Of a stretch of DNA of 64,000 bases, positions 20,122 to 26,191 are shown in pieces. The notes under the pieces were generated by a model, which was given only the letters and a program-made list of their open reading frames with translations, did not search any database and was not told where the DNA came from. The first letter of the stretch is position 1. Every line of letters starts with the position of its first letter. Source of the DNA: Flavobacteriales bacterium (GTDB lineage Bacteria > Bacteroidota > Bacteroidia > Flavobacteriales_E > Vicingaceae). The stretch is from NCBI GenBank assembly GCA_013359255.1, contig JABWCF010000002.1, positions 186,001-250,000 on the forward strand. The letters run 5' to 3'. The position numbers and the translations under genes are program-made.

Positions 20122-21675
20122 TTAATGCTTCGATAATTTAATAATTCTTTCACCTTGGTTATATTTTATTTTAACAAGGTAGTTGCCCGTATTCAATACC
20201 GAAATATCGAGTTCCGATTTTTTATCATTGGGTTTATAAGACAATAAAATTTTTCCGTTTAAATCTGCTATCATTATTTCGTTAGGAATAAATTTTTCCG
20301 ACTCAATTATTAATTTGTTTTTTGCCGGATTAGGATACATTTTTACCCCATTATCACTTAATTGTAAAGTATTAATTCCTGTGCAATCTAACACGTAGAT
20401 GCTATCGGAATCTGTATTTGTGCAACCATTTAAATCAGAAAAGGAATAAGTAATTATATTCCAGCCGATTTGAGCATTTCCGGGATTAAATGTTCCTGAA
20501 GAAACACCGCTGCCTGAGTAGGCTCCACCTCCGGGCACTCCTCCAGACAAGGTGAAAGAAGGAGAAGTATTACATAGCGTATCAGAAGAAACCTGAAAGG
20601 AAACTGTGGGCAGTGTATTTACCTCAACGGTTACATAAGCCGAGTCTATACAGCCATTGTTATGTGTAGCAATTACTTTGTAAGTAGTGGTAGCGTTTGC
20701 TGCAAAAGGTACTCCATTAGTGACTCCGTTATTCCACACATAAGAATTACCTCCATTGCCTGTTAATGTTACCAAGGTGCCCTCACAAACCGTATCGTTT
20801 GGTAATACCGAAACGGTTAAGAAAGAAAAAGAATTTATTTCTGTAATGATTACTTTTCCGTTTCCGCCTTGTACCCCTTTGCTGTTTGATTGATTTGTGC
20901 CTGAGTTATATGAACCTCCACCCCCTCCTCCGGCACGGCAGGAAGAACCTTCGCCTGCTCCTCCTCCAGAGTAACCACCACCCCCTCCACAACCACAAAC
21001 TGCACCACCGCCTCCTCCGTAACCTCCATGCCCATTTGGCCCAAATGTGTTTGAACCATTCCCTCCTGTAAATAAGGGAAAAGTAAGTCCTCCTGTACAA
21101 CCCCCTCCCCACGTGGAATTTTGCCCGTTAGAAAGCCATCCTGCACCACCGGAACCTGTTCCAGAGGGAGCATTTCCAAAACCTCCGTTACCATTTGTTC
21201 CTCCTAATGCTGAACTAATACCGTTACCTTGTGTACCGGAAGTTAAGGTATCTGCGTCTATTCCATTTACGCATGCCCCCGGCCAGTTAGTATTACCCCC
21301 ACCCCCACCCCCGGCAGCTATAAATAATACTTTATTGTTTCCACTTCCTTTCCATACAAATGAGCCCCCACCCCCACCACCTGACGCACCTGCTCCTCCG
21401 CAGCTATTCACATTTCCTTGTTGACCCACTACAATGAATAGGGTATCTCCAAATGTAACACTAAAATTTCCTTTCATTCTTGCCCCTAAGCCCCCATTTG
21501 TGTTTCCTCCCTGAGCTCCAAAAGCTTCTACGCTAACAGAGTTAACACACGGAGGAACTATATATTGTTGTATGCTTCCGTTTTGCACTACACCATTTGC
21601 ATTGTAGGTTATTTGTGCAACAAGTAAGGAAGGCATCAGTAATGAGGTTAAAGGGAACAATAATGTTTTTTTCAT
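20122..21675 (-). CDS. Glycine-rich secreted protein with T9SS type A sorting domain
   Basis: A 517-residue T9SS cargo protein. After the signal peptide (about 1-20) comes a domain of about 240 residues that is extremely rich in Gly (GGAGASGGGGGGSFVW, GGYGGGGGAVCGCGGGGG), resembling the glycine-rich receptor-like fold found in many Bacteroidota exoproteins. Then follow Ig-like or PKD-like repeats (VCEGTLVTLTGNGGNSYVW and a second one with FSDLNGCTN). The last about 75 residues are the sorting domain: VKMYPNPAKNKLII, ISVLNTGNYLVKIKYNQGE. This domain directs secretion across the outer membrane and surface attachment. No enzymatic motif was seen; an adhesive or structural role is inference. Confidence 0.85.
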   Translation of the reverse strand: MKKTLLFPLTSLLMPSLLVAQITYNANGVVQNGSIQQYIVPPCVNSVSVEAFGAQGGNTNGGLGARMKGNFSVTFGDTLFIVVGQQGNVNSCGGAGASGGGGGGSFVWKGSGNNKVLFIAAGGGGGGNTNWPGACVNGIDADTLTSGTQGNGISSALGGTNGNGGFGNAPSGTGSGGAGWLSNGQNSTWGGGCTGGLTFPLFTGGNGSNTFGPNGHGGYGGGGGAVCGCGGGGGYSGGGAGEGSSCRAGGGGGGSYNSGTNQSNSKGVQGGNGKVIITEINSFSFLTVSVLPNDTVCEGTLVTLTGNGGNSYVWNNGVTNGVPFAANATTTYKVIATHNNGCIDSAYVTVEVNTLPTVSFQVSSDTLCNTSPSFTLSGGVPGGGAYSGSGVSSGTFNPGNAQIGWNIITYSFSDLNGCTNTDSDSIYVLDCTGINTLQLSDNGVKMYPNPAKNKLIIESEKFIPNEIMIADLNGKILLSYKPNDKKSELDISVLNTGNYLVKIKYNQGERIIKLSKH

Positions 21676-21748: not shown

Positions 21749-21756
21749 TATATTTG
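21749..21756 (+). promoter_or_regulatory. -7 promoter box of the his operon
   Basis: TATATTTG matches the Bacteroidota -7 consensus TAnnTTTG exactly. The leader-peptide ATG begins only 4 bases after it, so the transcript probably starts at or next to that ATG. No convincing TTTG -33 element was seen upstream. Confidence 0.6.
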
Positions 21757-21760
21757 TCGT

Positions 21761-21820
21761 ATGAATAAGAAATTTACACAATTACATCTACACCATTTTG
21801 CCTGTTGCCCCCAACGGTGA
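21761..21820 (+). CDS. hisL: Histidine operon leader peptide
   Basis: A 19-codon open frame reads MNKKFTQLHLHHFACCPQR and stops at TGA. Three of four consecutive codons (9, 11, 12; bases 21785-21796) are His, and the frame precedes hisG by 74 bases, across a terminator-like hairpin. This is the arrangement of a ribosome-stalling leader peptide that senses charged tRNA-His. The start is chosen because it is the only ATG that puts the His codons in frame, and it lies just after the -7 box. The peptide itself probably has no function after synthesis. Confidence 0.85.
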   Translation: MNKKFTQLHLHHFACCPQR

Positions 21821-21882
21821 GCGGTGTGTGTATTGTGTAAACAATTTATAACAAGGCTTGCCGCAAATGGTAAGCCTTTTTA
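21802..21882 (+). promoter_or_regulatory. Histidine operon transcription attenuator (1:2, 2:3, 3:4 segments)
   Basis: Four mutually exclusive pairing segments can be drawn. Segment 1 CTGTTG (21802-21807) pairs with CAACGG (21812-21817). Segment 2 CGGTGAGC (21815-21822) pairs with segment 3 GCTTGCCG (21856-21863), forming an antiterminator. Segment 3, as AAGGCTTGCC (21853-21862), pairs with segment 4 GGTAAGCCTT (21869-21878) and is followed by T-rich sequence, forming the terminator. A ribosome stalled at the His codons would cover segment 1 and free 2 to pair with 3, allowing read-through into hisG; one reaching the stop codon would cover 1 and 2, so termination follows. The pairings are read from the sequence; the mechanism is by analogy with the enterobacterial his leader. 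Confidence 0.8.
21853..21882 (+). terminator. Intrinsic terminator of the his attenuator
   Basis: Ten-base-pair stem AAGGCTTGCC / GGTAAGCCTT (one G-U pair), loop GCAAAT, followed by TTTAATTTT. It lies 13 bases before hisG, where a constitutive terminator would make no sense, so it is conditional. Confidence 0.82.
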
Positions 21883-21894
21883 ATTTTAAAAAAG

Positions 21895-22749
21895 ATGAAA
21901 CTGAAAATTGCAATTCAAAAATCAGGGAGGCTACATGAAGATTCCATGCAACTGCTGAAAGAATGTGGAGTGGGAGTTAATAACGGAGCAAATAAATTAA
22001 AAGTTGAAGCAAGTCATTTTCCGTTGGAAGTGTATTTTTTACGAGATGATGATATTCCGCAGTATGTGGCTGACGGTGTAGCTGATATTGGTATTGTAGG
22101 CGAAAATGTACTAAACGAAAAAGGAAGCAAGGTGCACTGTATTGAAAAAACGGGTTTCGGTAAATGCCGTTTATCTATAGCAATCCCCAAAGACAGCAAC
22201 ATAAAAACACTAAAACAATTAAACGGCAAAAAAATAGCAACCAGTTATACCCATATTCTTTCGAACTATTTAAAAAAACAAAAAATAACAGCAGAAATTC
22301 ACGAAATAAGTGGATCGGTTGAAATAGCGCCTAGCATAGGATTATCCGATGCAATCTGTGATTTAGTTAGTTCCGGAAGTACGCTTTTTTCGAATGGACT
22401 TAAAGAATTTGAAACAGTTTTTTATTCCGAAGCCGTGCTCATAGCTAATCCGCACCTTAATGCCACGAGAAACGCTATGCTAAATAAATTGCTTTTTAGA
22501 ATACGTGCTGTAAAAAAGGCAACCAATAACAAATACATTTTACTTAATGCACCCAATCACAAGTTAAAAGAGATCTGTAAATTATTGCCCGGAATGAAAA
22601 GCCCTACCATTTTACCATTAGCCGAAAAAGGGTGGAGTTCGGTGCATTCGGTCTTAGATGAAAATGATTTCTGGAACAATATAGAAAAATTAAAAGCAAG
22701 TGGAGCACAAGGTATTTTAGTGGTTCCAATTGAAAAAATGATTGTGTAA
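21895..22749 (+). CDS. hisG: ATP phosphoribosyltransferase (long form)
   Basis: First committed step of histidine synthesis: joins ATP and PRPP, and is normally feedback-inhibited by histidine. At 284 residues this is the long, hexameric form that needs no HisZ; the extra C-terminal ACT-like regulatory domain covers about residues 210-284 (AEKGWSSVHSVLDENDFW). The catalytic part shows LKIAIQKSGRLHEDS, DDDIPQYVADGVADIGIVGENVL and the PRPP-loop region ICDLVSSGSTL. First gene after the attenuator. Start MKLKIAIQKSGRL matches the family. Confidence 0.96.
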   Translation: MKLKIAIQKSGRLHEDSMQLLKECGVGVNNGANKLKVEASHFPLEVYFLRDDDIPQYVADGVADIGIVGENVLNEKGSKVHCIEKTGFGKCRLSIAIPKDSNIKTLKQLNGKKIATSYTHILSNYLKKQKITAEIHEISGSVEIAPSIGLSDAICDLVSSGSTLFSNGLKEFETVFYSEAVLIANPHLNATRNAMLNKLLFRIRAVKKATNNKYILLNAPNHKLKEICKLLPGMKSPTILPLAEKGWSSVHSVLDENDFWNNIEKLKASGAQGILVVPIEKMIV

Positions 22750-22771
22750 AAGGTATAACGAAAAAATAAAA

Positions 22772-24046
22772 ATGATTTCAATTATTGAATATTCGAAACA
22801 AAATAAATACAGTTCGTTTCTAAAACGAAAAGTTTTTGAAAACGATGTATTGGAAAAGACGGTTTCTGAAACTTTAAAAAATGTAAAACAAGATGGTAAT
22901 AAAGCGGTACAGAAATACACAGCTACATTCGATGGATACAACAGCTCTGCGTTTCTTGTTACAACAGCCGAATTTACAGAAGCAGAAAATCAGATTTCTA
23001 ATACGCTGAAACAAGCCATACAAAATGCATATGACAATATTTATAAATTTCATTTGTCGCAACAGAATAACGAGTTGCCTGTTCTAGTTCAGCCCGGGGT
23101 AAAGTGTTGGAGAAAATCGATACCAATTCAAAAAGTGGGTTTTTACATTCCCGGAGGAACGGCTCCTTTGTTTTCCACTGTTCTTATGTTGGCCATTCCG
23201 GCTGGTATTGCCGGTTGTGTCGAAAAAATAATATGTACTCCCTGTAACAGTGCAGGAAAAATAAATCCGACTATTTTATATACTGCCAAACTATGCGGGA
23301 TAGAGAAAATTTTTAAAGTAGGGGGAGCACAAGCTATTGCCGCTATGGCGTATGGCACAGAAACCATTCCGAGGGTATATAAAATTTTGGGTCCGGGAAA
23401 CCAATATGTTACTTGTGCCAAACAACTTGTGCAAAAAGAAGGGGTAGCTATTGATATTCCTGCGGGTCCGTCGGAAGTGGCTATACTTGCCGACCAATCG
23501 GCAAACCCTGCATTTGTTGCAGCGGATATGCTTTCTCAGGCAGAACACGGTATCGATAGTCAGGCGGTTTTAGTTACCAACAGCAAATCAATGATAGAGA
23601 GCGTGCAACAAGAATTAGAAAAGCAACTTGCACTCTTACCTCGAAAAGATATTGTTTACAAAGCTCTACAAAACAGCTGTATGGTTTTAGTTACAGACCT
23701 TACCGAAGGAATTGAATTATTGAATGAGTATGCTCCCGAGCATTTAATTCTTTCTGTGGTTGATTCTCACCAGTATGCTGATAAAGTAATTAATGCCGGC
23801 TCTGTTTTTTTGGGAAATTATTCGCCAGAAAGTGCGGGCGATTACGCTTCGGGTACCAACCATACCCTGCCCACCAATGCTTTTGCAAAGGCATATAGCG
23901 GAGTATCGCTCGATAGTTTTATAAAAAAAATTACGTTTCAGGAAATTACACCGCAAGGATTGCGGCACTTATCCACAAGCATTACTGAAATGGCCGAAGC
24001 AGAAGGCTTACAAGCCCATGCTAATGCGGTTAAAATAAGATTGTAA
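22772..24046 (+). CDS. hisD: Histidinol dehydrogenase
   Basis: Catalyses the last two oxidations of histidine synthesis, L-histidinol to L-histidine, with Zn2+ and NAD. The protein has FYIPGGTAPLFSTVLM, KVGGAQAIAAMAYGTETIPRV, DIPAGPSEVAILAD and the metal-site region AEHGIDSQAVL, and ends with the conserved YASGTNHTLPT...AKAYSGVS segment. I start at the ATG at 22772 (MISIIEYSKQ) rather than 22742, which would overlap hisG. With that start it is 424 residues, the usual length. hisC begins 2 bases after its stop. Confidence 0.96.
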   Translation: MISIIEYSKQNKYSSFLKRKVFENDVLEKTVSETLKNVKQDGNKAVQKYTATFDGYNSSAFLVTTAEFTEAENQISNTLKQAIQNAYDNIYKFHLSQQNNELPVLVQPGVKCWRKSIPIQKVGFYIPGGTAPLFSTVLMLAIPAGIAGCVEKIICTPCNSAGKINPTILYTAKLCGIEKIFKVGGAQAIAAMAYGTETIPRVYKILGPGNQYVTCAKQLVQKEGVAIDIPAGPSEVAILADQSANPAFVAADMLSQAEHGIDSQAVLVTNSKSMIESVQQELEKQLALLPRKDIVYKALQNSCMVLVTDLTEGIELLNEYAPEHLILSVVDSHQYADKVINAGSVFLGNYSPESAGDYASGTNHTLPTNAFAKAYSGVSLDSFIKKITFQEITPQGLRHLSTSITEMAEAEGLQAHANAVKIRL

Positions 24047-24048
24047 AT

Positions 24049-25080
24049 ATGTTCGACCTAAATAATATTATACGAGAAAACATAAAAAAAATGGTGCCGT
24101 ATTCTACCGCACGTGATGAGTACAAAGGTAGCGAAGGTGTTTTTTTAGACGCCAACGAAAGCCCATTCAATACAGGGTTAAACCGTTATCCCGATCCGCA
24201 CCATACAGAATTGAAAATAATATGTTCTCAACTAAAAAAAGTTCAACCCGAAAATATTTTATTTGGTAATGGCAGCGATGAAATTATTGATTTAATTTAT
24301 CGGGTTTTTTGTGAACCCGGTTTACATAATGCCATTATTTTGCCTCCTGCCTACGGCATGTATAAGGTGGCAGCGCAGTTGAATAATGTTGGAGTAAAAG
24401 AAGTGTGCCTAAACGAAAATTTTCAACCCGATGCAGAAAAAATATTCGCAGAAATAAATGAAAATACACGTATTGTTTTTTTCTGTTCTCCCAATAATCC
24501 CAGCGGAAATATAATCAACAAAGAAGTGATTAAAACAGTATTAAAAAAATTTAACGGAATAGTAGTTGTTGATGAAGCGTATATTGATTTTTGCGAAGAA
24601 CACACTTGGTTAAAGGAGTTAAATAATTACCCTAATTTAATCATAATACAAACCTTTTCTAAGGCTTGGGGAATGGCCGGAATCCGCTTAGGAGCAATGT
24701 TTGCTTCAGCCTCTGTGGTTGAGGTATTGCACAAAATAAAACCTCCTTACAACATTAACATATTAACACAACGAGTGGCCCTACAAGCACTGCAAAATAA
24801 AAATCAAAAAGAGACTTGGGTTAAAGCTATTGTTTCTCAAAAAGTGATAATGCAAAAAGTATTAGAAACATTGCCTTTTACAGAAAAAGTGTATCCTTCT
24901 GATGCAAATTTTTTACTGGTAAAATTTCTCGATTCAGAAAAAATATTTACCTACTTGTTAGAACAAAAAATAATTGTTCGTAATCGCTCAAATGTTCAAC
25001 TTTGTTCGGGATGCTTAAGAATTTCTGTGGGAACTATGGATGAGAATTTAAAACTACTCGAAGCACTTAAAAATTTCTGA
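24049..25080 (+). CDS. hisC: Histidinol-phosphate aminotransferase
   Basis: PLP enzyme that transaminates imidazole-acetol phosphate to histidinol phosphate. The 343-residue protein has the fold I aminotransferase pattern: substrate-binding [19 protein letters not shown] at the N-terminus, [21 protein letters not shown], the VVDEAYIDF motif, and the PLP lysine in [14 protein letters not shown]. The C-terminal arginine motif [11 protein letters not shown] is present. It is packed tightly between hisD (2-base gap) and hisB (1-base gap), indicating translational coupling in one transcript. Confidence 0.96.
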
Positions 25081-25081
25081 T

Positions 25082-26191
25082 ATGCAAAAAATTTTGTTTA
25101 TAGACCGAGATGGAACACTTATTTGGGAGCCACCCGATAATTTTCAGATCGACAGTTTTGAAAAACTAAAATTTATACCCGGTGTAATAACCTGGCTCGG
25201 AAAAATTGCACGCGAAATGAACTACCAGTTGGTAATGGTTACCAACCAAGATGGGTTAGGTACAAAAGCCTTTCCGGAAGAATCTTTTTGGCCGGTTCAT
25301 CGTTTTATGGCAGAAACATTAAAAAATGAGGGAATTATTTTTACAGCAGAATGTATAGACCGAAGTTTTGAACACGAAAATAGATCTACACGAAAACCAA
25401 ATACAGGTATGCTTACTTCGTATCTGCAAGGAAATTACGATTTAAAAAACTCTTTTGTAATTGGTGATAGAATTACCGATGTGAAACTAGCCATCAATTT
25501 GGGAGCAAAGGCGATACTTTTAGAAAATTACGACCCCCCCAAGGGATGGGAAAAAGAAATTAGCTTAGTAGCAAAAAATTGGAAAGAGATTTATTTATTT
25601 CTATCCAAACACGAGCGAAATTCTACACACGTAAGAAAAACAAACGAAACCAAAATAGAAGTAGCTATTCATTTAAACGGATTAGGCAATGCGAACATCG
25701 AAACCGGAATAGGCTTTTTTAACCATATGTTAGAACAAATTGCCAAACATGCCAACATCGATTTACAAATTAATGCAATAGGAGATTTGCATATAGACGA
25801 GCACCATACCATAGAAGATACCGGTATTGCATTAGGCGAAGCATTTGCTATCGCCTTAGGAAAAAAAACAGGAATAGAGCGTTACGGATTTTGTTTACCT
25901 ATGGACGATTGTCTGGCTCAGGTAGCCATTGATTTTGGCGGCAGAGCTTGTTTGGTTTGGAATGCAGAATTTAAACGTGAAAAAATTGGAGAAATGCCAA
26001 CCGAAATGTTTTCTCATTTTTTTAAATCGTTTTGCGATGGAGCTAAATGCAATGTAAATATTAAAGCCGAAGGAGACAACGAGCATCATAAAATTGAAGC
26101 TATTTTTAAGGCTTTTGCAAAAGCTATTAAAATGGCTATTGCAAAAAACGAAAACAATTTTAATTTACCCAGTACCAAAGGAGTTTTATAA
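25082..26191 (+). CDS. hisB: Bifunctional histidinol-phosphatase / imidazoleglycerol-phosphate dehydratase
   Basis: Performs two steps of histidine synthesis. The N-terminal about 165 residues are a HAD-type phosphatase ([43 protein letters not shown]). The C-terminal about 200 residues are IGPD with its two metal-binding blocks, [13 protein letters not shown] / [12 protein letters not shown] and [14 protein letters not shown] / [20 protein letters not shown]. The 369-residue fusion is intact. It is the last his gene here: hisH, hisA, hisF and hisI/E do not follow, although they usually do in Bacteroidota. Confidence 0.96.

Follow-up and report, generated by a model that had tools for sequence, protein, structure and literature searches.

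A probable ribosome-mediated histidine attenuator upstream of hisGDCB in a Flavobacteriales genome, with counterparts in other Bacteroidota

Classical transcription attenuation is textbook knowledge in enterobacteria. To our knowledge it has barely been documented in Bacteroidota, a phylum whose promoter code differs and which makes little use of Shine-Dalgarno initiation, and a comparative study by Vitreschak et al. in 2004 reportedly mentioned attenuators in Bacteroidetes/Chlorobi. The enterobacterial his leader (RF00514) combines a His-codon leader peptide with mutually exclusive hairpins and a terminator before hisG (PMC9413887 and general knowledge). For his attenuators of the Bacillus cereus group, Eubacteriales and Erysipelotrichales, leader peptides containing tracts of His codons have also been described, together with a terminator and an antiterminator (PMC9413887); these are Firmicutes systems, likened to the present locus by description, and the term Bacteroid is absent from that source. 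Within Bacteroidota, a conserved, structured 5' element without an Rfam match has been reported at hisG of Flavobacterium psychrophilum and is conserved in Flavobacteriaceae, and the same study found strong indications of attenuation by leader peptides ahead of amino-acid operons in that species; for the hisG element, the text considered here describes neither a peptide nor a segment scheme nor covariation (PMC9723704). Another candidate cis-regulatory RNA of Bacteroidetes, the Bacteroid-trp RNA motif (RF01692), is named for trp genes (PMC2864571).

The window analyzed here, a stretch of 64,000 nucleotides from a Flavobacteriales contig, carries a locus of this kind ahead of an operon with the order hisG-hisD-hisC-hisB (+ strand, 21895 to 26191; Table 1). 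We interpret it as a ribosome-mediated (classical) histidine transcription attenuator of hisGDCB, with a probability of about 0.92. It has the same general parts as the enterobacterial his leader, but sequence or structure homology to RF00514 is not detectable, and the window has a stop codon within the antiterminator strand and a predicted leaderless start. With the F. psychrophilum element it shares the phylum, the gene, the proposed leader-peptide attenuation and the absence of an Rfam match, so the locus is a well-supported addition to a known kind; its predicted leaderless start and the placement of the stop codon within the antiterminator are the features that merit experiment. An Rfam scan of the locus, both at the gathering threshold and relaxed to E 5, returned no relevant family. 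Neither His_leader (RF00514) nor Bacteroid-trp (RF01692) reached its gathering threshold at the locus, and the latter concerns another amino acid and another family. Phe_leader (25 bits) and Thr_leader (21 bits) fell far under the cut-off of 55 and were rejected, their scores probably reflecting a generic leader shape.

Table 1. Features of the hisG leader and the hisGDCB operon (coordinates within the window).
Feature	Coordinates	Strand	Evidence
Predicted -7 promoter box, TATATTTG	21749-21756	+	Sequence; consensus from PMC9723704
Leader peptide frame, MNKKFTQLHLHHFACCPQR, 19 codons plus stop TGA	21761-21820	+	Sequence; His-rich frame in relatives
Long protector hairpin, 5' arm (segment 1)	21773-21807	+	Fold
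His-sensing codons CAT CTA CAC CAT (H L H H)	21785-21796	+	Sequence; mask folding
Long protector hairpin, 3' arm, takes in segment 2	21812-21841	+	Fold
Segment 2, antiterminator 5' strand, CGGTGAGC	21815-21822	+	Pairing; covariation; folding
Intrinsic terminator, stem 21853-21862 with 21869-21878, T-run 21877-21881	21853-21881	+	Fold; covariation
Segment 3, antiterminator 3' strand, GCTTGCCG, overlaps terminator 5' arm	21856-21863	+	Pairing; covariation; folding
hisG, ATP phosphoribosyltransferase, long form with C-terminal regulatory domain	21895-22749	+	Pfam HisG, HisG_C
hisD, histidinol dehydrogenase	22772-24046	+	Pfam Histidinol_dh
hisC, histidinol-phosphate aminotransferase	24049-25080	+	Pfam Aminotran_1_2; operon position
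hisB, bifunctional phosphatase / imidazoleglycerol-phosphate dehydratase	25082-26191	+	Pfam IGPD, HAD-like

The intergenic gap of 219 bases between a divergent, secretion-tagged gene (20122-21675, - strand) and hisG contains one TAnnTTTG promoter-like box, one 19-codon frame and one intrinsic terminator. A preliminary description of this DNA, made from its letters, had pointed to the frame with its three His codons (beginning at 21785, 21791 and 21794) and to the terminator ahead of hisG, and both are present. That the leader stop codon (TGA, 21818-21820) lies inside segment 2 is a detail absent from that description. The terminator hairpin reads AAGGCTTGCC-GCAAAT-GGTAAGCCTT (21853-21878), and it is the sole terminator detected in 500 bases, with 0.3 expected. 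Downstream, the hisD ORF opens at 22742 (TTG), with an in-frame ATG at 22772.

Predicted folding of the 147-nt leader gives -42.9 kcal/mol, compared with -26.7 +/- 3.6 kcal/mol in shuffles (z -4.55). The proposed pairing of segment 2 with segment 3, the latter overlapping the 5' arm of the terminator, exists at 8/8 positions (-10.6 kcal/mol); when an inner helix is included, the antiterminator has -19.1 kcal/mol and the terminator -15.2 kcal/mol. The 1:2 pairing put forward earlier (21802-21807 with 21812-21817) also exists, but only as the tip of the long protector hairpin (-26.2 kcal/mol), the lower part of which includes the His codons. The upper portion of the segment 1 arm, TTTGCC (21797-21802), mimics segment 3.

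The effect of a translating ribosome was modeled by blocking positions -18 to +12 around the A-site, with the transcript end set just past segment 3; the segments had been picked for complementarity before this mask folding. At the window locus, the probability of the 2:3 helix was 0 without a ribosome and 0.68, 0.93 and 0.99 with a ribosome at the three His codons, in line with the earlier proposal that stalling there favors the antiterminator. It was at most 0.01 from the second Cys codon through the CGG that precedes the stop, and 0 at the stop codon, a zero that is mostly due to geometry, since the ribosome then sits on segment 2. Across 80 loci the median probability rose from 0.10 in the absence of a ribosome to 0.99 with one at the best His codon, and fell to 0.00 with one at the stop; in 77/80 relatives the value exceeded 0.5 at the best His codon, the same number giving less than 0.1 at the stop. 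The protector hairpin was predicted to keep the 2:3 probability below 0.5 without a ribosome in just 53/80 relatives, so in these models stop-codon occlusion looks like a more general part of the attenuator design than the 1:2 hairpin. Among the hallmarks of an amino-acid attenuator, the locus has a His-rich leader ORF, a terminator before hisG and an exclusive antiterminator that shares the terminator 5' arm, while release of the antiterminator by a stalled ribosome, and its blocking by one at the stop, were seen in mask folding only.

In the proposed mechanism, transcription would begin at the leader ATG or about one base from it. An undelayed ribosome would proceed to the TGA within segment 2 and cover that segment, whereupon segment 3 would pair with segment 4 and the terminator would stop transcription before hisG. 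With uncharged His-tRNA, a ribosome waiting in vivo at the His codons would open the lower part of the hairpin (21773-21841), and the segment 2 freed in this way would pair with segment 3 (about -19 kcal/mol, compared with about -15 kcal/mol for the terminator), allowing hisGDCB to be transcribed. Without any translation, the long hairpin would sequester segment 2 and the terminator would form.

Conservation was assessed among hisG relatives consisting of the window's own kin and 80 named loci (99 usable loci together), and in a further set of 80 hisG stretches spread over the phylum. The preliminary description had named loss of the His-codon frame in relatives as a finding that would speak against an attenuator. 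A frame that opens with ATG, contains 3 or more His within 8 residues and lies no more than 300 bases from hisG is retained in 91/99 relatives; the corresponding rates are 2.7% for dinucleotide shuffles and 2.2% for other parts of the 99 loci. When at least 4 His are required, the count is 85/99 against 0.2%. In the phylum-wide set, 62/80 stretches have a His leader by a simple criterion, and chance occurrence in G+C-rich DNA probably accounts for some of these. A detectable leader is missing in about 8% of close relatives and in more of the distant ones; as judged from these sequences, the His-leader arrangement occurs across most of Bacteroidota.

Three main segment 2:3 types are found across the hisG leaders. 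The type GGTARGC:GCTTACC occurs in Chitinophagales and others, in most cases with an in-frame stop within segment 2, the Flavobacteria type has CTCAGGCG or CTCAAGCG paired with CGTCTGAG or CGTTTGAG, and a third type, GCCGG:CCGGC, belongs to other, deeper families. Compared with the window pair (CGGTGAGC:GCTTGCCG), leaders with the Flavobacteria-type pair (CTCAGGCG:CGTCTGAG) also have their ATG further from the -7 box. Compensatory changes in segments 2 and 3, which had been anticipated, were found both within types and between clades. Among 24 Flavobacteria-type loci, pairing in the 2:3 helix reaches 95.2% and there are 8 double-change cells (0/500 shuffles); among 63 Chitinophagales-type loci the values are 94.8% and 4 such cells (2/500 shuffles), and for the terminator of these 63 loci 97.8% and 52 such cells (0/500 shuffles). 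Within types, the terminator covaries strongly and the antiterminator varies less, but consistently; segments 2 and 3 co-change modestly inside clades and completely between them. The complementarity of segments 2 and 3 from the same locus scored 2440 versus 1976 +/- 34 for permuted pairings (0/10,000 permutations), and segment 2 of the window scored highest with an arm of its own type and lower with arms of the others. Since segments 2 and 3 vary little in the closest clade, conservation there could partly be of sequence rather than of pairing. The long 1:2 hairpin was 71% paired in relatives, without clear covariation, and is therefore not put forward as conserved in its details.

RNAalifold, applied to the whole alignment, returned the terminator alone, as expected for mutually exclusive folds. 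In a covariance search, the check suggested in the preliminary description, a model built from 62 relatives with the window left out recovered the window at 66.6 bits (E 2e-14). It was the only strong match in the 2.9-Mb genome, the next scoring 34.7 bits, and the weaker matches elsewhere look like generic terminators.

The hairpin might instead simply end transcription of an upstream gene, or act as a partial terminator free of regulation, with the His-rich frame present by chance, and GGCTT...AAGCC-like stems with T-runs are indeed found after genes elsewhere in this genome. However, the adjacent upstream gene is on the other strand, so that no + strand gene ends here and the terminator can act solely on the hisG leader transcript, and the frame, segment 2 and the terminator are conserved jointly across the phylum; we consider this explanation extremely improbable. 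A leader responding to a signal other than His, for example Cys (FACC) or general slow translation, has a marginally better, though still very small, chance of being correct. The mask model does give antiterminator probabilities of 0.87-0.99 with the ribosome at the Phe, Ala or first Cys codon of the window leader, but most relatives retain three to six His codons and have FLP, TYP or similar in place of the Cys codons, and the product of the operon is histidine. Just as slight is the chance that the element controls translation of hisG, or works through Rho, as the His leaders of some distant relatives (Pontibacter and similar) that have no clear intrinsic terminator might suggest; the window and most relatives possess an intrinsic terminator with a T-run, and this terminator covaries.

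The sigma-A -7 box of F. psychrophilum, TAnnTTTG, spans -12 to -5 (PMC9723704). The corresponding box of the window ends 4 nt upstream of the leader ATG, a spacing retained in a genus-mate (L002), and this distance would place +1 on the A of the ATG. The leader transcript is predicted to be leaderless, starting at the ATG or no more than about one base away. A TAnnTTYG box occurs 3-12 nt before the ATG in 51/79 Chitinophagales-type leaders (shuffles: mean 1.2, maximum 5), the leader-peptide transcripts of which are likewise predicted to be leaderless or nearly so, whereas 14/24 Flavobacteria-type leaders have the box 13-24 nt before the ATG. Only 2/52 long ORFs of the window have a -7 box that near their start. 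Leaderless mRNAs make up 5.5% in F. psychrophilum (PMC9723704), and 5' UTRs shorter than 10 nt are found for about 3.7% in Bacteroides thetaiotaomicron (PMC7366714); such mRNAs are rare in Bacteroidota. If the prediction is true, a transcript beginning at the leader ATG would offer a convenient model for leaderless initiation.

A broader proposal, on which our judgment is evenly divided, is that these loci form a Bacteroidota-wide class of histidine attenuators absent from Rfam. It would have a leaderless or nearly leaderless Chitinophagales-type branch and a stop codon built into the antiterminator strand, making the terminating ribosome the off-switch, and it would have spread horizontally with the his operon. 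A phylum-wide attenuator would imply that, in Bacteroidota, RNA polymerase and the first ribosome behind it remain near enough to communicate, and the alignment of relatives could seed an Rfam family.

HisG of the window's genus groups with Chitinophagales-type sequences, apart from its own family, seven members of which carry a Flavobacteria-type HisG and leader. Constraining the HisG proteins of the family to one clade was rejected (lnL difference 125.6, p ~1e-40). The leader type tracks the HisG tree and not the family of the organism, and hisG is missing from most sampled genomes of this family. The simplest reading of these sequence relationships is that the his operon moved between lineages together with its leader.

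The remaining his genes are dispersed. About 70 kb from hisGDCB are hisA, hisF and hisI/E, beside an nspC-like gene (G000:C16:136767-138830), and inspection by eye revealed no second His leader before hisAFI. The only hisH above the cut-off is on another contig (G000:C1:85371-86757), beside a second hisF-like gene and a flippase-like gene. Searches of the whole genome did not find prephenate dehydratase (pheA, PF00800) or dihydroxy-acid dehydratase (ilvD, PF00920), and found one chorismate-binding enzyme; the organism is probably auxotrophic for several amino acids yet retains histidine synthesis.

Several variant leaders were seen among the relatives. In Pontibacter and some related hisG loci (L083, L095, L099, L100, L101, L118, L119 and L146), longer leaders terminate in HHSS, carry a small hairpin that spans the stop codon and lack a clear intrinsic terminator; they may represent a different variant that is translational or Rho-dependent. 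Many Flavobacteria-type leaders (L010, L012, L015-L019, L124, L125, L138 and L149) have a second complement of the terminator 5' arm, for example TTTACTCAGAC, between the terminator and hisG. Bacteroidota-like hisG genes preceded by His-rich leaders, of which two end in HRVN, are also present in Acidobacteriota (Pyrinomonadaceae and others; L076, L082 and L088), apparently the result of another transfer.
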